Origin: Nitrospirota bacterium
GTDB lineage: Bacteria; JACPQY01
Direction of reading: 5' to 3'
Assembly: GCA_016190245.1 (NCBI GenBank)
Contig: JACPQY010000075.1
Coordinates: forward strand, 1-29,177
DNA length: 29,177 nucleotides
Each line of letters starts with the position of its first letter. The stretch's first letter is position 1. A program made the translations under genes and the position numbers. The notes beneath the pieces are model-generated. The model ran no database searches, had not been told where the DNA came from, and saw only the letters and a program-made list of their open reading frames with translations. Positions 15,143-29,177 of the stretch are shown in pieces.

Positions 15143-15285
15143 GGAAAATGGACCTCTGGCGCAGGAGGCACGCAGGCTCAAAGCCCCTTGCCATGGACGG
15201 CATGGGGCCATGCAAGGTCGCCGCGCCCAGGATGGCGCGGCATGCAACATGGCCTGCGCCTACCCCGGAGTTCCGGCCGCGTAGC

Positions 15286-15348
15286 CGCGGGCTTCCCGCC
15301 TGTCAAGTCCGCCACGGCGGACGGACTTCGGCGGGCAGGCAGCCCGCG
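15286..15348. repeat. Nested palindromic element (cruciform-like) upstream of the aminotransferase gene
   Basis: Three successive pairs of arms share one centre: cgcgggct/agcccgcg (15286-15293 and 15341-15348), cccgcc/ggcggg (15295-15300 and 15330-15335) and aagtccg/cggactt (15305-15311 and 15322-15328). An alternative central hairpin is gtccgcc-ac-ggcggac (15307-15322), whose stem is the same as at 10485-10501. The element ends 23 bp before the GTG of the next gene. No coding function is seen in 15143-15371. It is likely a MITE or REP-type repeat. Confidence 0.5.
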
Positions 15349-15371
15349 TCGTCGCGATCGAGGCTCTGAAA

Positions 15372-18952: not shown

Positions 18953-20395
18953 TCAGAAGGCGAAGTCCCAGCCCGCGCTCGCGACATGCATTCGGAGGGC
19001 GTCATCGCCGGTAGTTCTCATATACTGGTATTCCACGACGAGTCGCTGGAAGTCGTGCGGCGAGGAGAAACCGACCGTGAGTGCGTGAGTACCGGCTACT
19101 TCGTCGTCTGCGGGGTCATAGAAGTCGTAGCGAACCCAGGGAATGAAATGATCCCACACGGCGAGGTCGGCCTCTCCATAGAATCCCCAACTGTTAAATG
19201 GCTCGACGCTCCCGGCCAAGACCCCTTTTCCCACGCCGCCGCCAACACCGCCCAGCAGGTTGAAGGCGTCAAGGGGCGCGTAATTGGCGGCGAGAAGTCC
19301 GCGCCAAAAAGTATTCCGAAAGGTCCCCGCATCCGGATTGGTTTTGTCCTTGGGCTGATCGCGGTTCCCCAAGTATCCTACGGTTTGAACGGCCCCGCCC
19401 GCATCCCCGATGAACCGGATGAAGTGGATCTCCGTATCGAAGCTGTTGTTCTGAGCCGAGAAGCCGGAGACCCCGTTTCCATCCGGATCGAGCCCGTTGA
19501 AGAGGGAGATCGACGCCAGAGAGTCGCTGATCCCGCCGCCGAGCATGACGCCGATCTGGCTGGGATGGATGAAGGAGAAGGCGTTGCCTTCCGAATGGGC
19601 GGAAGTTACCAGAGGCGCCGAGAAGCCTACAGGATTATCGAGGCCTCCAAGTCCCTCGACCGGATGCATCACCCCCGCCTTGACCTGGAGGAATCGGACC
19701 TCCTCACCGAATACGCCGCGCACGTTGGCCATGTGGATATCCGCTTTCCCCTCATCCGCATCGAACCGAACGTCGAAAAAGGTGGAGTAGTATCGCCCGA
19801 ACGGCGCAGTGGAGAAAATGTCGACTTCAGGCGCAGAAAAACCGATCCTCGTCTTGGAAGAATCAGCACCGAAATCCCCGACCGTTTCCACGTGTCGCTT
19901 GGGAGATTTCTCTCGGCGGATTGGAGCAACCCCGATCGGAATGGAGCCGATGTTGACCTCTGCTGCCTGGACGGCGTCTTCTTTGTTGCAGAAGATCGTG
20001 ATCCCCGTGCTCCCTCCGTGGCTGTGACCGGGGGCATCCACACTCTCCACGGACACCTCCTTGTCCACGCACCGGGAGCTACGAGTCACGTTGAATGACA
20101 GGCCGCCCTTCATGGAGAAGGCATCGAGCAGCCGTTTGAGTTCGGGGCCGTTCTCAGCTTCGGGATCCCTGGGCGTGCGATAGCCCATCGCGCGAAACAT
20201 GAACCCGAATTTGTTCAGCCGGGGCCAGGAATCGTGGCAACGATGGCATGGCATCTGTTCGCGGCGGGCGAAAGCCGGAATGGCCTCAGCCGGGGGCGGA
20301 ACCACACCCCAGGCAATCGTGGCAAGAACGAAAAGGGGCGCGTAGCCGGCAAGACGCTTGTGCCGAGTTGCGCGGGGGCGTCCACCCGCCCTCAT
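18953..20395 (-). CDS. Monoheme cytochrome-porin fusion (Cyc2-like outer-membrane protein)
   Basis: 480 aa from ATG 20395, which has a Shine-Dalgarno AGGA 6 nt upstream and begins a signal peptide (RHKR then a hydrophobic stretch, cut after PPAEA at about 38). A frame extending to 20506 exists but belongs to the preceding gene region. Right after the signal is FARREQMPCHRCH, giving one c-type heme site (C50-C53-H54), followed by PRLNKFGFMFRAMGYR. The remaining 400 residues alternate polar and apolar residues with many aromatic-ended strands and finish WDFAF, the C-terminal phenylalanine typical of BamA-assembled barrels. One N-terminal heme plus a large barrel is the architecture of Cyc2, the outer-membrane iron oxidase. 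Family membership and substrate remain unproven. Last gene of a five-gene operon, starting 1 nt after the preceding stop. Confidence 0.75.
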   Translation of the reverse strand: MRAGGRPRATRHKRLAGYAPLFVLATIAWGVVPPPAEAIPAFARREQMPCHRCHDSWPRLNKFGFMFRAMGYRTPRDPEAENGPELKRLLDAFSMKGGLSFNVTRSSRCVDKEVSVESVDAPGHSHGGSTGITIFCNKEDAVQAAEVNIGSIPIGVAPIRREKSPKRHVETVGDFGADSSKTRIGFSAPEVDIFSTAPFGRYYSTFFDVRFDADEGKADIHMANVRGVFGEEVRFLQVKAGVMHPVEGLGGLDNPVGFSAPLVTSAHSEGNAFSFIHPSQIGVMLGGGISDSLASISLFNGLDPDGNGVSGFSAQNNSFDTEIHFIRFIGDAGGAVQTVGYLGNRDQPKDKTNPDAGTFRNTFWRGLLAANYAPLDAFNLLGGVGGGVGKGVLAGSVEPFNSWGFYGEADLAVWDHFIPWVRYDFYDPADDEVAGTHALTVGFSSPHDFQRLVVEYQYMRTTGDDALRMHVASAGWDFAF

Positions 20396-20396
20396 A

Positions 20397-20819
20397 TCAA
20401 GTCCTGATGGCTTCGTTGAGAAACTGGCGGAGGTCGGGATTTTCGTTCTGGATTCGCTCCCAACCCCAGCGGCTGAAGAACGTGACTCGGACGTTGCTTC
20501 CCGCACAAATCGACACGGAAAAACGGCCCTCGGCGGCCAGGGCTTGAAGGCCGAGAAGGCACGGCTCGCAGCAACATCCCACGACGGCGCGGCCTCTCAA
20601 GAAGGAGAGCCGGCCCGCCTCGTGCAGGTAGATTCCTACAGGGTGATGATCCTCGTAGGAGATCGTCTGGCCGGGTCGGAAACGCTGCTCCGTCCCTCGA
20701 CACTTGAGCGAGAAGACAAGAGCGGGATTCGGCAGACACTTGATGGGGAGGGTCGGCGTCGGGACCGATCGTCCGGGAGATTCCCGATTTTCCGGCGCAC
20801 TTCCGGCTTCCCGTGCCAT
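20397..20819 (-). CDS. Stand-alone cysteine-rich cNMP-binding-like protein
   Basis: 140 aa if translation starts at the ATG at 20819, 16 bp after the preceding stop; the stop codon is 1 nt before the next start, so it sits snugly in the operon. Residues about 46-138 resemble a cyclic-nucleotide-binding (Crp/Fnr N-terminal) beta-roll: RFRPGQTISYEDHHPVGIYL, HEAGRLSFL, a middle segment ending LLGLQALAAEGRFSVSI, then VRVTFFSRWGWERIQ and NPDLRQFLNEAI. No helix-turn-helix or enzyme domain follows. The phosphate-binding RxxA/S motif is not clear, so it may not bind a nucleotide. It carries at least seven cysteines, including a GCCCEPC cluster, suggestive of metal, heme, cluster or thiol chemistry. 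No signal peptide is seen. The first about 35 residues are poorly defined and the true start may be a later alternative codon. Confidence 0.65.
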   Translation of the reverse strand: MAREAGSAPENRESPGRSVPTPTLPIKCLPNPALVFSLKCRGTEQRFRPGQTISYEDHHPVGIYLHEAGRLSFLRGRAVVGCCCEPCLLGLQALAAEGRFSVSICAGSNVRVTFFSRWGWERIQNENPDLRQFLNEAIRT

Positions 20820-20835
20820 CACGAACCCGGCCGAA

Positions 20836-21951
20836 TCAGAAGAACACATGGACCATACCGACGACCTCGTTGATGCCGCCCACGGGATTGTCCGACCGGG
20901 CCACCGAACGTCGGTACAGCATTTTGAACTCGAGATACGGAATCGGGAAAATCTCGAATCCGCCGCCGATGCGATGGACGAGGTCTCCCTCCAAGTCGAA
21001 GTCCGGGTTGGTGTATTCATAGAGTCCCTGGATTTCGAGACCCCGGGTGACGATGACGTTGGCCTCCTCATAGACGGCCAATCCCCGAACGGTTTTCTTT
21101 GCGCCCAGATCGCGGTTCGAGAACCAGTCGGTCTCGCCGAGGTATCCAAGACGCCCGTATGACGCTCCCCAGATGATGCCGTCCCGCATGGCGATCCTGC
21201 GGGGCGACTCTTCGGCTGTCTCGCGGCTGCCCGTGAGATTGTACAGACTGGACAGGCCGAGCATGATTGGAACCGGACCGAGCCGGGCGGCGTATTCGAC
21301 ACGGGTGGTTGCGGCCTTTTCCGTATTGTTGTCCTGGTTGACTTTACCCCCAACCCCGTTGAACACGTCCAACTGGATGAGGAACGGGCCGGGTCGGACT
21401 CCGAATTCGATGCCCGTCTCCTTCTCACGCGGTGCAAAGCCGATGTCCTCCCGGACGAACGTGCGGTGGTTGTCGAGACGCCACCCGTAGGTTGGGATGA
21501 ACCGGCCGACCTTCACGAAGCTATCCGACCAAGGGATGGATATGATTCCCATGGCCTCGTAGGTCCCATTGAAACCTTGATCGTAGTAGAGGTTCAGTCG
21601 TTCGTGCAGTTTCGCGGAGGCGTACAGATCCGCCTGCATCTGGAAGAAGGAGCTCGTGCTGGTGATACCTTCCTCCTGCGATGGGATATAGATATATGCG
21701 GATCGCGAGTCGGCCCCAAAGCGCAGGGGACCGATCTCCGGCGGGCCCCAGACCCTTGCCCCGTGTTCCCACGGGAGATCCAACCATTCGAATACCTGGC
21801 TCGCGTAGGCGTTACGCATGCCGCCGCCGGAGGGGTTCACGTGGCAGGCGCCACACGTCATGCCCTCACGCACGGCAAAACGCGGCAGAGCCACCGCCGG
21901 GGCGGAGCCCAGCAGCCACAGGCCCAGGACGAGCGAAACCCTTTGAATCAT
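20836..21951 (-). CDS. Monoheme outer-membrane beta-barrel protein
   Basis: 371 aa. A clear signal peptide (MIQRVSLVLGLWLLGSAPAVA, cut after A21) is followed by PRFAVREGMTCGACHVNPSGGGMRNAYA. The single heme c site is C33-C36-H37, in the CxxCHVNPSGGG context known from hypothetical proteins of metal-reducing Deltaproteobacteria. The rest is a run of predicted amphipathic beta-strands ending VHVFF, a typical outer-membrane barrel C-terminus. It may form a heme-plugged barrel moving electrons or small molecules across the outer membrane. The ATG overlaps the stop of the upstream lipoprotein gene (ATGA), so translation is coupled. It is not obviously homologous to the larger barrel two genes downstream, though the layout is the same. 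Confidence 0.8.
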   Translation of the reverse strand: MIQRVSLVLGLWLLGSAPAVALPRFAVREGMTCGACHVNPSGGGMRNAYASQVFEWLDLPWEHGARVWGPPEIGPLRFGADSRSAYIYIPSQEEGITSTSSFFQMQADLYASAKLHERLNLYYDQGFNGTYEAMGIISIPWSDSFVKVGRFIPTYGWRLDNHRTFVREDIGFAPREKETGIEFGVRPGPFLIQLDVFNGVGGKVNQDNNTEKAATTRVEYAARLGPVPIMLGLSSLYNLTGSRETAEESPRRIAMRDGIIWGASYGRLGYLGETDWFSNRDLGAKKTVRGLAVYEEANVIVTRGLEIQGLYEYTNPDFDLEGDLVHRIGGGFEIFPIPYLEFKMLYRRSVARSDNPVGGINEVVGMVHVFF

Positions 21952-22373
21952 CTGGGCCTCTCCAAGCGGATTTCGGCGCGTGGCGCCTTGGAGAGCGGAT
22001 GGATTCGGATCCTATCCGCCGCGCCGGCATATCCGAACGGATCGACTCCCGCTTTCAGCATCCCGGCGTACGGCGTGTCCGAAGGATCCAGATCGACGGA
22101 CGCGCCGACCACGTAGTCCCCCGGCGGGAGGCCATCAAACCGGACCGTGGTGGGGAACGAGTAATCTTCGATGAGCTTGTACGTGAGCGGGGCGCCCTTT
22201 GGAGGGTATGACTCGTAGACGGCTACGGCCAGGGGCTGCCCCGCCCGCGCCGTTTTTCCGTGGTAGTCGATGACGACGTCGAGGGAGCCTTCCCCGCCCC
22301 CTACCTGCCCGCCGCAACGTGCGAGCAGGCAGACGAGCGCCATCCCTATTCCAAGCCGAAGAATCTTTCCCAC
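21948..22373 (-). CDS. Small putative lipoprotein with a beta-sandwich-like domain
   Basis: 141 aa from a GTG at 22373, chosen because AAGGAG lies 8 nt upstream and the protein then begins with a secretion signal (GKILRLGIGMALVCLLARC). C20 would be the lipidated cysteine, but arginine at -1 is unusual for a lipobox, so lipidation is uncertain. The rest (SLDVVIDYHGK, VRFDGLPPGDYVVGASVDLD) looks like a transthyretin- or carboxypeptidase-regulatory-type beta-sandwich with an acidic loop (DLDPSDTP). No heme motif. The gene overlaps the cytochrome gene upstream by 28 bp and the barrel gene downstream by 4 bp, so it belongs to the operon. A structural or assembly subunit of the conduit is the natural guess. 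Confidence 0.75.
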   Translation of the reverse strand: MGKILRLGIGMALVCLLARCGGQVGGGEGSLDVVIDYHGKTARAGQPLAVAVYESYPPKGAPLTYKLIEDYSFPTTVRFDGLPPGDYVVGASVDLDPSDTPYAGMLKAGVDPFGYAGAADRIRIHPLSKAPRAEIRLERPR

Positions 22374-23116
22374 AGTCCCTTCTCCTTTCCGAGCGAACGA
22401 ACGTAGTGAACGACGTCCCACAGTTCCTCCGGGCTCACCAAATCCTGGTGGGAGGGCATGGGAGTGCCGCAGATGCCCTGGACGATGACGCGGTAGAGAT
22501 CCGCGTTCGTTCCGCCGCTCTTGAACCGCGCCTTTGTGAAGTCACGCGGGCGGACGGATCCACCCCAATCATCTTTCAGAGTACCGGCCGAGGGGCCGTC
22601 CCCGCGCCCCGAGGGGCCGTGACATTTCACGCACTCCAAGTCCTCAAAGACTTTTCGGCCTCGTTCGATCCCTGAGGCGTCCGCCGCCGTTTCAGGCGGG
22701 ACGCCGGAGGCCCCGGCGAGCCTGGGGGATGTCTTAATGAGTTGCAGGACGAAAGCCGCCACGGAGGAAATCTCTTCACCGCTCAGCACGCCCACCCATC
22801 CGGGCATTTTCGTGCCGGGGAGGCCGTCCCTGACGATGCGCTCGATGTCCTCCCGCCGTGGAAGCGAGCCGCATGGCGTGGTCTGGAATTTGAGAACCCC
22901 TTTCCGGAAGTCGCGCGGGCGCGGATTCAGGTACGAAGAAACATCGCCTTCGCCGTCCCCCTCCGCACCGTGGCAGGCGGCGCAGGCCTTGCGGTAGACA
23001 TCCCGGCCTTGGACCAGGCGCAGAACCGCGTTGTCCGCTCCGGCTTCACCCCACGCGGGACCGCCCAGGCAACAGATCCCCGTCAAGAGCACCACGGCTG
23101 CGCAAAACGCTTTCAT
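22346..23116 (-). CDS. Periplasmic diheme cytochrome c
   Basis: 256 aa with a signal peptide (MKAFCAAVVLLTGICCLGGPAWG). Two class I cytochrome c domains: CAACH at C45-H49 followed by GAEGDGEG and a methionine ligand candidate in GTKMPGW, then CVKCH at C162-H166 followed by GPSGRGDGPS and GTPMPSH. Both domains share the PRPRDF motif (NPRPRDFRKG and VRPRDFTKA), so they arose by duplication. Electron carrier in the periplasm. As the first gene of the operon with the two barrel proteins, it is a plausible inner partner that takes or gives electrons at the outer-membrane barrels. The start is preceded by AGAGG 5 nt upstream. Confidence 0.9.
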   Translation of the reverse strand: MKAFCAAVVLLTGICCLGGPAWGEAGADNAVLRLVQGRDVYRKACAACHGAEGDGEGDVSSYLNPRPRDFRKGVLKFQTTPCGSLPRREDIERIVRDGLPGTKMPGWVGVLSGEEISSVAAFVLQLIKTSPRLAGASGVPPETAADASGIERGRKVFEDLECVKCHGPSGRGDGPSAGTLKDDWGGSVRPRDFTKARFKSGGTNADLYRVIVQGICGTPMPSHQDLVSPEELWDVVHYVRSLGKEKGLWERFFGLE

Positions 23117-23167
23117 CCTCGCCTCTATTTGGAGCGGTTCTTGGAGCCTCTAACAGACTGCTGATTC

Positions 23168-23226
23168 GTAGGGGAGCATCTTCAGATGCTCCCTCTTGTC
23201 GGGAGGGTCTGAAGACCCTCCCCTAC
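23168..23226. repeat. REPIN-like element: two inverted GTAG-footed hairpins
   Basis: GTAG at 23168 leads a 10-bp-stem hairpin (23172-23193, gggagcatct/agatgctccc); after tcttgtc a second 10-bp-stem hairpin (23201-23222, gggagggtct/agaccctccc) ends with CTAC at 23226. Outside the feet, aacaga (23152-23157) and tctgtt (23231-23236) also pair. The second half recurs in inverse orientation at the right window edge with 30 identical bases. The element lies between the regulator stop and the diheme cytochrome start and may terminate or attenuate read-through. Confidence 0.75.
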
Positions 23227-23249
23227 GCATTCTGTTGGACGCTCTTAGA

Positions 23250-24104
23250 CTACGAGGCTGGACGGGAAGATTTGATGATGCCGAGTTTCTTGATGAGGCG
23301 CTGGAGCGTAACACGGTGAATGCCGAGTGCTTCGGCGGTATAGGTAACGTTTCCGCCGTGCCTCGCGAGCATATCGACGAGATAATTCCTCTCGTAGTCT
23401 CTGAGGACGGCGCGCCGCGCAGAGACACCGTCGGTCGTCCTCTCCATCGGACGTGGGATCGCTCCCCCCTTCCGGAGATCCTCCACCGTTATGACGGCTC
23501 CCGTGGCCTTCGAGACCGCCTTTTGGACGGCGGCGCGAAGTTCGGCCGAGTTACCGGGCCAATCCTGGTCGGCCAGGAGATCTAACGCCTCGTCCGAAAA
23601 ACCCTTCACGCGCAGTTTGGGGTTTTCCTTTAGTAGTGCATCCAGAAAACGGACGGCGAGGTGTGGGATGATCTCCGGTTTTTCGCTCAAGGCCGGCGCG
23701 GGCTCCATGCGGCGAAGGAGATCCGCGTGCTCCTTTGCCTGGCGAGCGAGGAGGGCCGATCTCACTGCATCGACCAACTGATCGCCCGTAAAGGGTTTGG
23801 TGAGGTAATCCACAACGCCGCCCTTAAACGCTTGAATGGCGGACTCCACGGAGGGATACGCCGTGATGAGGATCACGGGAAGGTCGGGCGCGACTCGGTG
23901 GGCCGCCTGGATGACGGCCTGACCTCCCCCGTTCGGCATACGGAGATCGGTCAGCACAAGATCCAGTTCCTCACGCTGGAGGATCGGTGCGGCTTCCTTT
24001 GGAGAAAGGGCGAGGAAGACCGCAAACTTCGCCCCTTCGAGCGCCTGCCGGCAACTCGCCAGCATGTCCCGGTCGTCTTCGACGATGAGGATGCGTTCAG
24101 GCAT
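23250..24104 (-). CDS. NtrC-type response regulator lacking the AAA+ ATPase core
   Basis: 284 aa. The receiver domain (about 1-120) has acidic pocket D10-D11, phosphoacceptor D53 (VLTDLRMP) and the conserved lysine in YLTKPF. From about 148 the sequence is that of the end of an NtrC AAA+ domain (IIPHLAVRFLDALL, GFSDEALDLLADQDWPGNSAELR), then a Fis-type HTH (NVTYTAEALGIHRVTLQRLIKKLGI, about 252-277). The part holding Walker A, GAFTGA and Walker B is absent, so it cannot remodel sigma-54 polymerase. It probably acts as a DNA-binding activator or repressor with sigma-70-type polymerase, like the PrrA/RegA group in layout. SD GGGAG precedes the ATG. It lies downstream of its kinase gene across a palindrome and next to the cytochrome operon, its likely target. 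Confidence 0.88.
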   Translation of the reverse strand: MPERILIVEDDRDMLASCRQALEGAKFAVFLALSPKEAAPILQREELDLVLTDLRMPNGGGQAVIQAAHRVAPDLPVILITAYPSVESAIQAFKGGVVDYLTKPFTGDQLVDAVRSALLARQAKEHADLLRRMEPAPALSEKPEIIPHLAVRFLDALLKENPKLRVKGFSDEALDLLADQDWPGNSAELRAAVQKAVSKATGAVITVEDLRKGGAIPRPMERTTDGVSARRAVLRDYERNYLVDMLARHGGNVTYTAEALGIHRVTLQRLIKKLGIIKSSRPAS

Positions 24105-24114
24105 CCGTTCTCCC

Positions 24115-24161
24115 TATCGAGGCTAAGCCTCTATAGTCGCCATAGAGGCTTAGCCTCGATA
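24115..24161. repeat. Perfect nested palindrome in the kinase-regulator gap
   Basis: 20-bp arms (24115-24134 and 24142-24161) are exact reverse complements around the 7-nt loop agtcgcc. Each arm is itself a palindrome centred on gaggctaagcctc, so the RNA can fold as one long hairpin or two short ones. It fills most of the 66-bp gap and ends right at the Shine-Dalgarno sequence of the regulator gene (24110-24114). It has no GTAG foot and is a different family from the REPIN at 23168. Confidence 0.8.
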
Positions 24162-24170
24162 GAAACCTCA

Positions 24171-25574
24171 TCAGGCACCTCCCAAGGGGATTCGCACGGT
24201 TACGGTGGTGCCGGAGCCGGACCGGCTCTTAATCCCCAGAGATCCACCGTGGGCGTTCACAATGGAATTGGAGATCGAGAGGCCGAGTCCCAACCCAAGT
24301 TCCTTCGTGGAGTAGAACGGCTCCGTGGCATGCCGCAGGGACTCCTCGCTCATGCCTTGTCCTGCGTCCGAGACGCTCAATACCAAACCCTCCCGTTCGG
24401 CGGCTGCCCGAACGACCACCTCGCCGCCCTCCGGACTCGCATCGATGGCATTCGTCAGCAGATTGAACAGGACCTGCTGGATGCCCTGCTCATCCATCAC
24501 CACCTCGGGCAAGTCCGGCGGGAGATCGGCTCGGACTTGAATTCCCGCGAGACGGATCCGATCGTCCAGAAGTTCCAGACATTCACCCACCATGCCGGCG
24601 ACCTTGACCGGGCGGGGCCGGAGGCCGTCGCTCTTCATCGTGTAGCGCGCAAATTGAAGAAGTTTTTGGGTGGCCAACGTGGCCCGTTTCGAGGCCGTGC
24701 GAAGGCGTCGAATTTCTTCCGCGGCGCCTGAGTTGAATTCCCCCGCCCTGACTCTCGAATCGAGGAACGAGGCATTCATGCTCATCACACCCAATGGGTT
24801 GTTGATTTCATGGGCGATGGTGGCGGAGATTTCTCCGAGGTAGGCCAGTTTCCTGGCCGCGTCGAGCTGACGGGTGCGTTCATCCAGGCGATCCATCAGT
24901 TCCTGGAAGCGCATCGCGATCTGCGAAGTCTCGTGTGTCTCCTCAAGCGAGTTCTTCCCCCCTGTCTTTTCGTCGAGAAAAACCGCCCGCTCGATGGCCC
25001 GATTGAGCTCCTCGATCGGCCGGGAAACGTAGATGGCGGTCAGGATGCCCGCGATGAGTCCTGCCGTCCCAATCCCGAGGAGGTATCTGCCCACCCGACC
25101 GATCAGCTTCCGGAGCGGTGCCTGACTGAGGCCGAGGCGAACGCGATAGCCTCGGCCGATCGATTCGTAGTCATAGACGTATTCGCCGTCCATTCGGATG
25201 AGGCGCACGGACACGTCTTCCCCTTTCACGGCTTCGTGCGGCACGGAGGCAAGGTCCCCCGGAATCCCCTTGGGGAACGTGCTCCAAAGCGGCCGGTTGT
25301 TGGAGTCCATGACCGCGATATAGCGGGTATCCGGCATGGATCTCATCTGGCGCTTGAACAAATCCGAGAGACCCGCGAGGTCGTCATAGTAGACCAGCCG
25401 GGCGCATTCAGCCGCGACGGCCCGCGTGAGGTGGAGGCCCCGATCCCGGAAGAAATTCCGGGCGGAGGCATAAAGGAGGAGGCCCACCGTTGCGGAGATG
25501 ACGGTCCCCCACATCATCGCGTATACAACGAATGTGAAGGAGATCCGAGTCCGGAGCCGGACGGGGTCCCGCAC
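24171..25574 (-). CDS. Membrane sensor histidine kinase
   Basis: 467 aa with a GTG start overlapping the previous stop by 1 nt (TAGTG). TM1 is at about residues 13-36 and TM2 at about 165-184, enclosing a periplasmic domain of about 130 residues. A HAMP-like linker follows (YVSRPIEELNRAI). The dimerisation/phosphoacceptor helix carries H255 in HEINNPLG, the NtrB-like H-box, and the HATPase domain has NLLTNAIDAS (N box), DAGQGMS (G1), FYSTKELGLGLGLS (F/G2) and a final GSGTTVTVRIP. All catalytic elements are intact. The adjacent response regulator is surely its partner, and the PhnD-like gene just upstream probably supplies the ligand-binding input. Confidence 0.93.
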   Translation of the reverse strand: MRDPVRLRTRISFTFVVYAMMWGTVISATVGLLLYASARNFFRDRGLHLTRAVAAECARLVYYDDLAGLSDLFKRQMRSMPDTRYIAVMDSNNRPLWSTFPKGIPGDLASVPHEAVKGEDVSVRLIRMDGEYVYDYESIGRGYRVRLGLSQAPLRKLIGRVGRYLLGIGTAGLIAGILTAIYVSRPIEELNRAIERAVFLDEKTGGKNSLEETHETSQIAMRFQELMDRLDERTRQLDAARKLAYLGEISATIAHEINNPLGVMSMNASFLDSRVRAGEFNSGAAEEIRRLRTASKRATLATQKLLQFARYTMKSDGLRPRPVKVAGMVGECLELLDDRIRLAGIQVRADLPPDLPEVVMDEQGIQQVLFNLLTNAIDASPEGGEVVVRAAAEREGLVLSVSDAGQGMSEESLRHATEPFYSTKELGLGLGLSISNSIVNAHGGSLGIKSRSGSGTTVTVRIPLGGA

Positions 25575-26569
25575 TATTTCCCGCCTTTAAGATAGGCATC
25601 CACCCTCTGATGAATCTCTCTCGCGGAATCGTAGAGGCCCGGTGCGGGAGCTTCGAATCTCAGGACCCCCATCGCCTCCAAGGCTTTCCGGCCTCTGGGA
25701 ACCTGGTCCATGATCAGAAAGGCTTTCTGGAGCCGGCCCCGAAGGTACGGATTCATACTTGTCGGAACGACCACAGGCGGTGCGCCAAGAGGGGGAGACG
25801 TGTCGAGGACGCGGACCTCGGCCCGCAGGGAAGGATTGCGTTGAATTTCGCGCTGGTATGCGCGGCTGTGAACGGCGGCGGCATCGGCCATCCCGCTCGC
25901 CACGGCCTCCAGACTCCCATCGCTGCTGTTTGTGAACGTGGTTCGTGAAAAAAAGCCCCGAGGTTCGATGCCAAGACCCAGCAGACGGAACAACGGGTAA
26001 TAGTAGCCGGCCATGGAGAGCGTATCGGTGTAGGCGAAGGAATAGCCTTTGAGATCCTCGACCGTTCGGGCGGGCCGGTCGGCGCGGACGATGATGAGGG
26101 CGTGATAGACGGGCCCTTCTTCATAGACAGGGACCGCGATATTCTCGATGGGCAGATCGACCTCCTCGGCGCGAATGTAGGCGCCCGGGCAGAGCAAAGC
26201 CGCCTGCACGGCGCCGTTTCTCAGCAGCTCGTTCACCTCGCCGTGCGTCTTCTGCTGGATCAATCGAACCGGGTGAGAGAGCCGGTTTTCGAGGTAGGCG
26301 GTCAGAAGCTCATAGTTCTGCGCCGTCCTGTTGGGGGAAAGAATGGGACCGATCGCAACTCGGTAGGGAGGGGTTTCCGCCCCGTTGGGGACCATGGCGG
26401 AGGAATCCAGCCGAACTTCGATCGCCCGCTCTCCGAGATTTGCGAGAGGCGCGACGGCCAGAAGGATACCCAATCCCACGACCGAGAGAGCGAGGACAAG
26501 ATGCCGGCGCCGGAGCCCGCTCCATTTCGCTGCAAGGACGGTGAATGAAGGAATCACCGGGATTCGCAC
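25574..26569 (-). CDS. Membrane-anchored PhnD-like periplasmic binding protein (sensor subunit)
   Basis: 331 aa with a GTG start. One N-terminal hydrophobic helix (about 22-43) with no obvious cleavage site anchors it in the inner membrane. The rest is a PhnD-family (phosphate/phosphite/phosphonate type) two-lobe binding domain: YRVAIGPILSPNRTAQNYE, a lobe-1 strand AALLCPGAYI, then VYHALIIVRADRPARTVEDLKGYSFAYTD and SDGSLEAVASGMADAAAV. No ABC permease or ATPase gene is near; instead a kinase and a regulator follow in one operon, so it is read as a ligand sensor, not a transporter. The layout is that of AioX-AioS-AioR, where the PhnD-family AioX binds arsenite. The protein has one cysteine, C127, at the ligand-cleft strand. 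The ligand here is unknown. Confidence 0.85.
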   Translation of the reverse strand: MRIPVIPSFTVLAAKWSGLRRRHLVLALSVVGLGILLAVAPLANLGERAIEVRLDSSAMVPNGAETPPYRVAIGPILSPNRTAQNYELLTAYLENRLSHPVRLIQQKTHGEVNELLRNGAVQAALLCPGAYIRAEEVDLPIENIAVPVYEEGPVYHALIIVRADRPARTVEDLKGYSFAYTDTLSMAGYYYPLFRLLGLGIEPRGFFSRTTFTNSSDGSLEAVASGMADAAAVHSRAYQREIQRNPSLRAEVRVLDTSPPLGAPPVVVPTSMNPYLRGRLQKAFLIMDQVPRGRKALEAMGVLRFEAPAPGLYDSAREIHQRVDAYLKGGK

Positions 26570-26621
26570 CGCCGCCTCGTTCCCATGCCTTCAAAGCTAC
26601 GTGTCGGGGATGCTCAGGAAC

Positions 26622-26635
26622 ATGACGGAAGTCAT
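26622..26635. promoter_or_regulatory. Short palindrome in the sensor operon promoter region
   Basis: atgac-ggaa-gtcat lies 53 bp before the PhnD-like gene and after the upstream terminator, where the promoter of the sensor-kinase-regulator operon must be. It could be an operator, but a 5-bp half-site is common by chance. Confidence 0.25.
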
Positions 26636-26670
26636 ATTTGGCGCCGCAGGGAAGGGCGGAGCGGCAGCCG

Positions 26671-26707
26671 GAAAAAGAAGCGGCAGGCGGGGAAGCCCGC
26701 CTGCCGC
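26671..26707 (-). terminator. Intrinsic terminator of the octaheme cytochrome gene
   Basis: Read on the minus strand, a perfect 12-bp GC-rich stem gcggcaggcggg/cccgcctgccgc (26707-26696 and 26691-26680) with loop CTTC is followed directly by ttctttttcc. It lies 28 bp after the stop of the octaheme cytochrome gene. It separates that gene from the sensor operon. Confidence 0.85.
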
Positions 26708-26734
26708 ATAGGGTTACGTTGCGCTCGCTACTTC

Positions 26735-28762
26735 TCAGTCTCCGCTCAATCTCTTATTCTCGTGGCAGGCGCCGCAGGCGTTCGGCATGATGTCCGTATC
26801 CTTCCCGCCCGATGCTTTCTTGAGGGCGCTGGAGGTTTCGTACTTGATCACGTCGAACACGTGGGAGGCTTGGTCACCCGAAACGAGGGCCGTGTTGCCC
26901 GCCGCATCCTTGCCGGTGGTGTAGCCGCCGGACTTGGCCGTCTTGGCCATGTGGCACGAGGAACAACGGCCCACAGGTTTCGCGTCATTCGTCGGATCAT
27001 ACGTGGAGCCCATGCCCGGAACCTTGTCCTTCATGTGCGCTTTCACCGCATCCGCCACGGCCGAGCTCGATCCCCCGCCGGCAGCCAGTGCCGTGTGATT
27101 CTTTTCCGCCTTGCCTCCCGCGGCGATGTGGACCTCGGCCACGTCTTCTTTCGTAAGCGAGGCATACGGAGCTTCACCGGCGTGGCATGTCAGGCACAGG
27201 GTATTGTTCTTGTGGCTCGGACTCAATAGGGCGTACTCGTCCTTCCCGACCTCCTCCTCAAGCTCCTTCGGACCTTGATAGAGCGAGTGGACGTTGTGGC
27301 AGCTCGCGCAGGTCAGCTTCTCCTTCGAGTTGGCCCAGTGCTTGGAGTAGCTCAGCATCGTGTATTGCTGGCGGTGGGCCAACCCGTGTTTGCCGTCCGG
27401 CCACGCATTGAAGGCGCCGCCCTCAGCAGACGTCACGCCGAAGCCTTTGATGTAGTCCTTGAGATCGTAGACGCCCGCCACGAAGGCGCCATTGCCCAAC
27501 TTGGACGCATTCGCCAGGTTGTAGGCGTATCCATGGACTCCCGACGGGTCTTTGCTCTTTCCATCGTCGCCTGAGTGGCACATTCCACAGACTTGGTTCT
27601 CTCCCAGAGCCGTCAAGTTGCGGGGTGTGATGATGGTGAGTTTCCTGTTCTCAGTCGTCGCGGCCAGGTGTTCCGAGCCGGGACCGTGGCACACCTCGCA
27701 GGTGATGTTCATGTCCTTGTAGCTGTACGCTTCCGTGTAGTTCTTGCCGGAGGCCGCTTCTCGCGTGAGCTCCATGCCGGTGTTATGGCAGCCCGCACAC
27801 TGACGGGAAAACGTGCGGCCTCGATCGGCCCATTCGGTTTCCTTGTAGGCGCCGGTCTTCGGCGCACCGTCTCCGGACTGGGTGATTTGCACCGGCAGGA
27901 TGAGATAATCCTTGTCCTTTCCGGAAGTGTATGTCCATGAGGACGCGAGAGGAACGTCAGAGAGTTTGGCGAGGAATCGCTGTTTGTACTTTCCGAAATT
28001 GGGCTTGTTCGCGATACCGCCATCGCCCTCGCCGCCGTAGGTTCCCGAAACCGCTATGAACGTGCCGTCGGTCGTGACCGTGCAATCCGCCGTTCCTCCG
28101 AACTTCATCTGGTAGTCGCCGGCCGTGGGCTGACAGAGGACCACGGCAACTTGGGCCGCCTTGGTCGGATCAGCCGTATCCTTGGCTCCGGTCGGATCCA
28201 TGGCTTTGATTTTGGAGTCGATGGTGGCGCCCACCGTGGGCCATTTCTCGAGGCTGATCATGCGCGATTTGTCGGTCGTGATCGAGACGGCGTGAGGGGC
28301 CCCGCGTTCCTCGGCGTCCTGAGTTTGATGGCAGGCGGCGCACTGGGTCCCGCCGACGTATTTGGCCGAATCGGAAGGCCGGGAGGAAAGCGTGATCGTC
28401 ACCGACTCGGAGGGTTTGCCGTCCTCTCCAATTTCAATCGCATGGCGGGTTTCACCGGCGAGGTAGGAGGCGCTTGGCGCGGCGACTTTCAGAAAGGCTT
28501 TCCCTGCGCCCACGCCTTCAAGAGCGAACGCGCCATTGGCGTCGGTGATCGCGGAAGCCGCCTGACCCTCAACCGTCACCGCGGCGCCTTCGATGCCCTT
28601 GCCCGCGGCGTTCTTCACGAAGAATTCGAGCTTCTTCGTTGTGGTGGTGGTCGTCGTGGTGGTTGTTTCCTTGTCCCCCCCGTCGCATCCGGTCGCGGCG
28701 AGCATGGCCGCGATGAACAACGGGGTCATCCCGCGCAGGGCATTTCGAGCAAGCATACTCAT
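26735..28762 (-). CDS. Octaheme c-type cytochrome lipoprotein
   Basis: 675 aa from ATG 28762, preceded by GGAGG with 7-nt spacing; an ATG 84 bp upstream has no such site. The lipoprotein signal ends LAATGC, followed by GDKE and ten threonines in a row, a flexible tether. A CarboxypepD_reg-like beta-sandwich (VKNAAGKGIEGAAVTVEG, ITDANGAFALEGV) comes next. Eight CxxCH heme sites follow: CAACH (C141), CAGCH, CEVCH, CGMCH, CASCH, CLTCH, CSSCH and CGACH (C663). The opening KYVGGTQCAACHQTQ resembles cytochrome c554-type multiheme proteins. No catalytic residue set of nitrite reductase or hydroxylamine oxidoreductase is recognised. A lipid-anchored, tethered multiheme protein is typical of extracellular electron transfer, though it could face the periplasm. 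Monocistronic: a strong terminator follows. Confidence 0.92.
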   Translation of the reverse strand: MSMLARNALRGMTPLFIAAMLAATGCDGGDKETTTTTTTTTTKKLEFFVKNAAGKGIEGAAVTVEGQAASAITDANGAFALEGVGAGKAFLKVAAPSASYLAGETRHAIEIGEDGKPSESVTITLSSRPSDSAKYVGGTQCAACHQTQDAEERGAPHAVSITTDKSRMISLEKWPTVGATIDSKIKAMDPTGAKDTADPTKAAQVAVVLCQPTAGDYQMKFGGTADCTVTTDGTFIAVSGTYGGEGDGGIANKPNFGKYKQRFLAKLSDVPLASSWTYTSGKDKDYLILPVQITQSGDGAPKTGAYKETEWADRGRTFSRQCAGCHNTGMELTREAASGKNYTEAYSYKDMNITCEVCHGPGSEHLAATTENRKLTIITPRNLTALGENQVCGMCHSGDDGKSKDPSGVHGYAYNLANASKLGNGAFVAGVYDLKDYIKGFGVTSAEGGAFNAWPDGKHGLAHRQQYTMLSYSKHWANSKEKLTCASCHNVHSLYQGPKELEEEVGKDEYALLSPSHKNNTLCLTCHAGEAPYASLTKEDVAEVHIAAGGKAEKNHTALAAGGGSSSAVADAVKAHMKDKVPGMGSTYDPTNDAKPVGRCSSCHMAKTAKSGGYTTGKDAAGNTALVSGDQASHVFDVIKYETSSALKKASGGKDTDIMPNACGACHENKRLSGD

Positions 28763-28769
28763 AGTCACG

Positions 28770-28774
28770 CCTCC
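28770..28774 (-). promoter_or_regulatory. Ribosome-binding site that fixes the octaheme cytochrome start
   Basis: GGAGG on the minus strand, 7 nt before ATG 28762. It decides the start in favour of the form with a clean lipoprotein signal peptide. Confidence 0.75.
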
Positions 28775-28846
28775 TTCATCAGCGCACGATTGGGCCCGGC
28801 TTCGTACCGGTGCCGTGTCGATGTTTCCAATGATTCCTGAAATCAC

Positions 28847-29151
28847 GCGGGGAGTGTAACCGACACGCAGCAGGCGAGAATGACGCCGGTCAATGAGATG
28901 CCTGAAACTTCAAGTGAATCAGATGCGTTACTTCAGAACTGCTGCAATACAGCATCAGCCATGGATCAACGTTGAGAACTTCACATAACCTGTCTTTATC
29001 ACTTGATCATGCTATCGATACTCATCACTGGATCTGTCCAGGCATCGAGATGGATGGAATGAGTGATGCACTATCGCAGCAGCAATGCCCCGATCCGGGT
29101 CCTAAGCTCGACTTTTGCCATTTTTTGAAAGGTTTATGTTGGTCATGATGC
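28847..29151. other. Non-coding, AT-richer upstream region of the octaheme gene
   Basis: No credible gene is seen in about 300 bp. The base composition is clearly lower in GC than the genes. It contains ctgga-tctg-tccag at 29028-29041 and catcact/agtgatg pairing across it (29023-29029 and 29062-29068), possible operator or structured RNA elements. No promoter matches well enough to call. Confidence 0.4.
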
Positions 29152-29177
29152 GTAGGGGAGGGTCTTCAGACCCTCCC
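29152..29177. repeat. REPIN-like half element at the right window edge
   Basis: GTAG followed by a perfect 10-bp-stem hairpin gggagggtct/agaccctccc (29156-29177), cut by the window end. Together with two preceding bases and more (29148-29177) it is identical to the reverse complement of the right half of the element at 23168-23226. Confidence 0.75.

Follow-up and report, generated by a model that had tools for sequence, protein, structure and literature searches.

A nine-gene cytochrome locus in a Nitrospirota metagenome-assembled genome probably consists of two unrelated blocks joined at a repeat

Nine genes at positions 18953 to 28762 of contig JACPQY010000075.1 (Nitrospirota bacterium, assembly GCA_016190245.1; the whole 29,177-nucleotide contig is called the window) look like a single locus that moves electrons through the outer membrane. 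The metagenome-assembled genome (MAG) to which the window belongs, as contig C68, has 3.29 Mb and is referred to as G000. We compared it with G001, a MAG of the same family but a different genus and the single such relative, just one having turned up when genome contigs were scanned. The nine genes appear to form two unrelated blocks: block I, an octaheme lipoprotein followed by a PhnD-type sensor, kinase and regulator trio, and block II, a genuine cassette of five genes with two putative fused monoheme beta-barrel proteins, A and B, and a predicted conduit role. The blocks meet in a repeat of a type abundant in G001, most likely through a chimeric contig. We give this reading a probability of about 0.7.

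The junction lies between the regulator and diheme cytochrome genes, in a palindromic repeat of about 105 bp at 23141-23250. It is inside this repeat that near-identity to G001:C16 starts: window positions 23141-29177 differ from G001:C16:126118-132154 by 4 mismatches in 6037 bases (99.93% identity), and a comparison of the junction sequences places at least three of the four within the first 25 bases, still in the repeat. Syntenic genes to the left of the nine-gene stretch, on the other hand, are 69-78% identical to G001:C5, which we take as the normal divergence between the two genera. More than 30 copies of the repeat occur in G001 at 90-98% identity, whereas elsewhere in G000 we found short partial matches only; its 30-nt core was counted 19 times across 420 kb of G001 and not once across 430 kb of G000. 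The end of the window falls inside another copy of the same repeat. The junction copy folds strongly (-63 kcal/mol, z -9.8). By a Markov profile and by a tetranucleotide classifier with a cross-validated accuracy of 0.98, the window resembles G000 as far as about 18.9 kb and G001 from there on.

The features are listed below in the order of transcription, with the partial repeat copy last.

26735..28762, minus strand: block I, octaheme c-type lipoprotein, eight CXXCH motifs, N-terminal carboxypeptidase-regulatory-like domain
26680..26707, minus strand: intrinsic terminator 3' of the octaheme gene, 12-bp stem and T tract
25574..26569, minus strand: block I, PhnD/ArrX-like periplasmic binding protein, N-terminally anchored (X component), PF12974 at E-value 4e-54
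24171..25574, minus strand: block I, histidine kinase (S component), HisKA and HATPase_c domains
23250..24104, minus strand: block I, response regulator (R component), PF00072, PF25601 and PF02954
23141..23250, no strand: palindromic repeat resembling repetitive extragenic palindromic (REP) elements, junction of blocks I and II, end of near-identity with G001:C16
22346..23116, minus strand: block II, periplasmic diheme cytochrome c, PRDF-type, PF13442/PF00034
21948..22421, minus strand: block II, small putative lipoprotein, lipobox LLARC
20836..21951, minus strand: block II, barrel A, predicted fused monoheme beta-barrel protein, one CXXCH, CxxCHVNPxGGGxR family
20397..20819, minus strand: block II, small protein resembling the cyclic-nucleotide-binding (CNB) fold, PF00027 at E-value 0.0036, below the Pfam cut-off
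18953..20395, minus strand: block II, barrel B, predicted Cyc2-like fused monoheme beta-barrel protein, one CXXCH, AIPAFAR...CHRCH...PRL
29148..29177, plus strand: partial repeat copy, truncated by the contig end, a perfect inverted copy of 23201-23230

The initial annotation of this DNA had described nine same-strand genes with heme motifs, and both coordinates and CXXCH counts bear this out: all nine are on the minus strand and all the heme motifs are present. Third-position GC supports the coding of the genes picked by the gene caller. The CNB-like gene was missed by the caller and is supported by a homologue, 53% identical, at the equivalent place in G001. The true start of the small lipoprotein is probably a GTG near 22373.

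Each block has a context of its own elsewhere. In G001:C16, the regulator of block I is followed by the repeat and then by genes for a decaheme protein, which has an MtrC/MtrF-like domain (PF22113, E-value 4e-26), and a nonaheme protein. G000 has its own trio on contig C25, with 76% (PhnD), 72% (kinase) and 59% (regulator) identity to the window proteins, and there too a decaheme gene follows the regulator. The octaheme protein, identical in G001:C16, has a homologue of about 70-71% identity in G000:C25. Because both loci show a regulator and then a decaheme gene, the trio of block I is natively part of a multiheme-cytochrome cluster. The three-component sensor and octaheme partner, initially thought to be dedicated to the barrels, thus belong in both related loci to a separate multiheme cluster, and meet the cassette only at a chimera-like repeat junction.

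Block II is a real five-gene cassette, conserved in a second genus. Its adjacent genes overlap or have at most 17 bases between them, and all five have counterparts in G001:C52, with protein identities of 93% (diheme cytochrome), 91% (lipoprotein), 89% (barrel A), 53% (CNB-like protein) and 69% (barrel B). No octaheme gene or PhnD-type trio was found beside block II in G001:C52. The idea of two different monoheme barrels in one operon therefore stands for a tight cassette with a diheme cytochrome, kept in two genera, but not for the octaheme partner, which is not natively linked to it. Upstream of the cassette in G001:C52 are a PAS histidine kinase and a sigma-54 regulator, together with a cupredoxin-like protein and a 503-aa lipoprotein (L023:10605-12703); the latter two, preceding the cassette, recall Cyc2 with rusticyanin.

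How did the two blocks come together? A chimeric contig, in which the cassette was joined to sequence from a G001-like organism, is the most likely cause, since contigs from different genera share a nearly difference-free stretch and the join and both contig ends fall at the same repeat. Several points weigh against our reading. The assembled sequence on which it is based would look alike after misassembly and after recent recombination. Block II is also G001-like in composition, and its identity to G001:C52 is mosaic (64-95% per 300-bp bin), which argues that real DNA exchange between the G000 and G001 lineages probably occurs. As for the cassette itself, electron transfer by barrels A and B is a prediction from the genes, and AlphaFold did not confirm the barrels, its predicted local distance difference test (pLDDT) score being 28 for barrel A, modelled with one relative (L022), and 32 for barrel B alone.

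The join could alternatively be real, the product of homologous recombination between repeat copies, either through a very recent transfer of block I from the G001 lineage or in a G001-like strain that recombined its own two loci. The breakpoint inside a multicopy repeat is compatible with such an event, as is a Y1-type transposase gene, of the kind mobilising REP elements, in the window (PF01797, 330-1268; 88% identical to a G001 copy), and a tract of 83-95% identity across the diheme and barrel A genes suggests an earlier exchange. However, block I is nearly without divergence against a background of 69-78%, in both assemblies contigs break off at this repeat, which is the usual signature of repeat-induced misassembly, and the full nine-gene order was not seen on the donor side. 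A real join is thus unlikely, though it deserves to be kept in mind. We also considered G001:C16, instead of the window, as the chimera, and rejected this: its gene order agrees with G000:C25, and the composition of block I and the repeat type are G001-like. An attractive novel operon can thus arise from a contig joined at a repeat, and MAG-based claims of electron-transfer operons need to be checked in a second genome.

Of the two barrels in block II, barrel B resembles Cyc2. Cyc2 is a fused cytochrome-porin that acts as an Fe(II) oxidase, with a signature of AXPXFAR[Q/K][T/Y] upstream of the heme motif and PXL four residues after CXXCH; a single CXXCH, a length of at least 365 aa and a fused beta-barrel are also expected (PMC8406198). 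Barrel B shares with Cyc2 a signal peptide, AxPxFAR, a single CXXCH, PxL, a predicted barrel-like C-terminal domain and a terminal Phe, and has 480 aa; its barrel part is predicted from weak profile matches to porins. However, in its upstream motif, AIPAFARRE, R-E replaces [Q/K][T/Y], and its PRL comes three residues after CXXCH, where the Cyc2-type proteins of L030, L036 and L136 have four. Barrel B also differs from Cyc2 in having a second fused barrel and a diheme cytochrome c alongside. On the two signature positions we did not file it as Cyc2; its sequence describes a Cyc2-like fused cytochrome-porin that is not Cyc2 by the published signature. A reading in which barrel B is nevertheless genuine Cyc2 and the cassette serves Fe(II) oxidation would fit the shared elements and the length above 365 aa (criteria of PMC8406198), as well as the cupredoxin-like gene beside the G001:C52 cassette, reminiscent of rusticyanin. 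Yet beyond the two altered positions, many relatives with the three-residue spacing adjoin pentaheme or NapC-like cytochromes, suggesting other roles, and we consider this rather improbable.

Barrel A carries a different heme site, CxxCHVNPxGGGxR, and belongs to a second, possibly undescribed family of putative fused monoheme barrels. For both proteins a barrel fold is likely from sequence profiles. With the barrel-B family profile we obtained ten PDB matches at an E-value below 1, all of them outer-membrane barrels (PhoE, OmpA, NanC and others; best E-value 0.0075). The barrel-A profile matches cytochromes at its heme end and, weakly, Porin O and P. Single members of the families match Porin_4, Porin_O_P, BBP2 and OMP_b-brl. 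The C-terminal residue is F, W or Y in 27/34 and 17/19 members of the two barrel families.

Both families are widespread. Among 386 sampled genomes, profile matches at an E-value below 1e-20 were found in 54 for the barrel-B type and 25 for the barrel-A type, and only G000 and G001 have both types in one operon; in a third genome, G238, the two are separated by 10.6 kb. Cytochromes of the c type are frequent direct neighbours of barrel-B homologues: those of L031 and L134 adjoin a pair of monoheme and NapC-like triheme cytochromes, and that of L027, from an unrelated genome, stands beside a triheme relative 37% identical to the window diheme protein. A recurring pair in unrelated genomes (L035, L119, L120, L125, L131 and L135) consists of a Cyc2-like fused barrel and, immediately adjacent, a cytochrome with four or five hemes. 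Barrel-A homologues in L022, L105 and L106 have a PSCyt1 (Planctomycete-type) cytochrome as neighbour, and L106 also has a cytochrome P460 gene. Many members of both families have no cytochrome neighbour, so that the separation of barrels from cytochromes, which the initial annotation had named as evidence against its proposal, is partly seen. No barrel relatives were found in the viral collection that we searched.

An outer-membrane electron-transfer role of block II is plausible in view of the heme motif, which resembles that of Cyc2, and of the neighbouring cytochromes. In the proposed path, an N-terminal plug with a single c-type heme in each of barrels A and B would let electrons cross the outer membrane. 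In the periplasm, the diheme cytochrome c would carry them between the barrel hemes and the respiratory chain, with the small lipoprotein and the CNB-like protein as putative accessories. Cyc2 oxidises a soluble electron donor (PMC8406198, PMC9040806), and by analogy electron uptake from such a donor would be the likelier direction. The conduit role initially proposed for the whole stretch is thus plausible for the barrels and diheme cytochrome of block II and does not extend to the octaheme and sensor parts.

Block II resembles the porin-cytochrome conduits MtrCAB, PCC3 and PCC4 (PMC5566968) in combining a barrel with a periplasmic cytochrome, and block I in having an outer-membrane multiheme lipoprotein. 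However, we found no large barrel with a separate multiheme plug, the heme here being fused to the barrel; the octaheme gene is natively unlinked to the barrels, so there is no operon set of the MtrCAB/PCC type. As a variation on the fused cytochrome-porin theme, the cassette with its two barrels is real and new, and has a putative conduit role. It may even be a new type of conduit, in which a pair of unrelated fused monoheme barrels serves as parallel or sequential entry points to one diheme cytochrome, with one barrel coming from an undescribed family present in many bacterial families; this we propose tentatively, at somewhat less than even odds. In either case the theme extends beyond Cyc2 to a broad barrel-B superfamily, the barrel A family and a cassette with both. 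If barrel A is a true electron-transfer porin, many genomes without known conduits gain a candidate.

Block I comprises an octaheme lipoprotein gene of outer-membrane type, closed by its own terminator, and an ArrX/AioX-type trio. The terminator (26707-26680) has a 12-bp stem with 11 G-C pairs, then TTCTTTTTCC, and folds at -28.7 kcal/mol (z -7.0). That all nine genes are one operon, encoding a complete outer-membrane conduit with a three-component sensor of its own as first proposed, agrees with their shared strand and short gaps, but is largely refuted and in our view has almost no chance of being right, given this strong terminator, the repeat at 23141-23250 with a far side near-identical to another genus, and the different native contexts of the blocks in two genera. 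Between the kinase and regulator genes, at 24114-24162, lies a perfect 21-bp inverted repeat with a 7-nt loop (-44 kcal/mol).

The best PDB sequence match of the octaheme lipoprotein is 6i5b (E-value 5e-10, covering query residues 308-609 only), which we take to be the multiheme reductase OcwA. The similarity is weak, and the window protein differs in its eight hemes, its lipoprotein nature and its extra N-terminal domain.

The trio itself has a known layout. PhnD-type sets of sensor, kinase and regulator are the XSR modules (AioXSR, ArxXSR and ArrXSR) that control arsenic metabolism (PMC5908839). The window trio follows the same X-S-R order in a similar setting of respiratory genes, and the best PDB match of its PhnD-fold protein is ArrX (6x6b, E-value 4e-42), followed by AioX (6esk, E-value 2e-26). 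The trio differs in its pocket, in a regulator without AAA+ core, and in adjoining multiheme cytochromes and no recognised arsenic enzyme. At the positions of the AioX pocket residues Y88, C106, Y131, S161, S163, H192 and D210, the window protein has H, C, Y, S, A, S and D, keeping four of seven and changing three (Y88 to H, S163 to A, H192 to S). The G000:C25 orthologue shares these three changes and has D at 131. Because the pocket is altered, the window trio presumably senses something other than arsenic oxyanions. In a literature search, no paper turned up that links PhnD and histidine kinases with extracellular electron transfer and multiheme cytochromes.

Two paralogues of the X protein, C25c in G000 and one in G001:C12, lie beside molybdoenzyme genes and appear to keep all seven pocket residues; each X paralogue in G000:C25 and G001:C12 is adjoined by a kinase 54-72% identical to that of the window. 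Beside ArrX-like sensors with an apparently full arsenic pocket are molybdopterin oxidoreductase genes (L168:5286-9859 and L170:1464-5934), accompanied by a 4Fe-4S partner and a small gene, and arsenic or other oxyanion respiration is possible for these loci.

The window regulator combines a receiver, an AAA+ lid and a Fis-type helix-turn-helix without the AAA+ ATPase core, which full-length paralogues keep. Its G000:C25 orthologue (L169:2591-3445, 59% identity) has the same core deletion, so that it is present in both genera, and we rejected an assembly error as the origin of the short regulator.

Two further observations concern the window and its assembly. Positions 1-141, when reverse-complemented, equal the end of G000:C25, and the overlap has the look of a 141-base k-mer from the assembly. 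A second repeat family, at 15170-15350, is dispersed many times in G000, and one half of it also occurs in G001.

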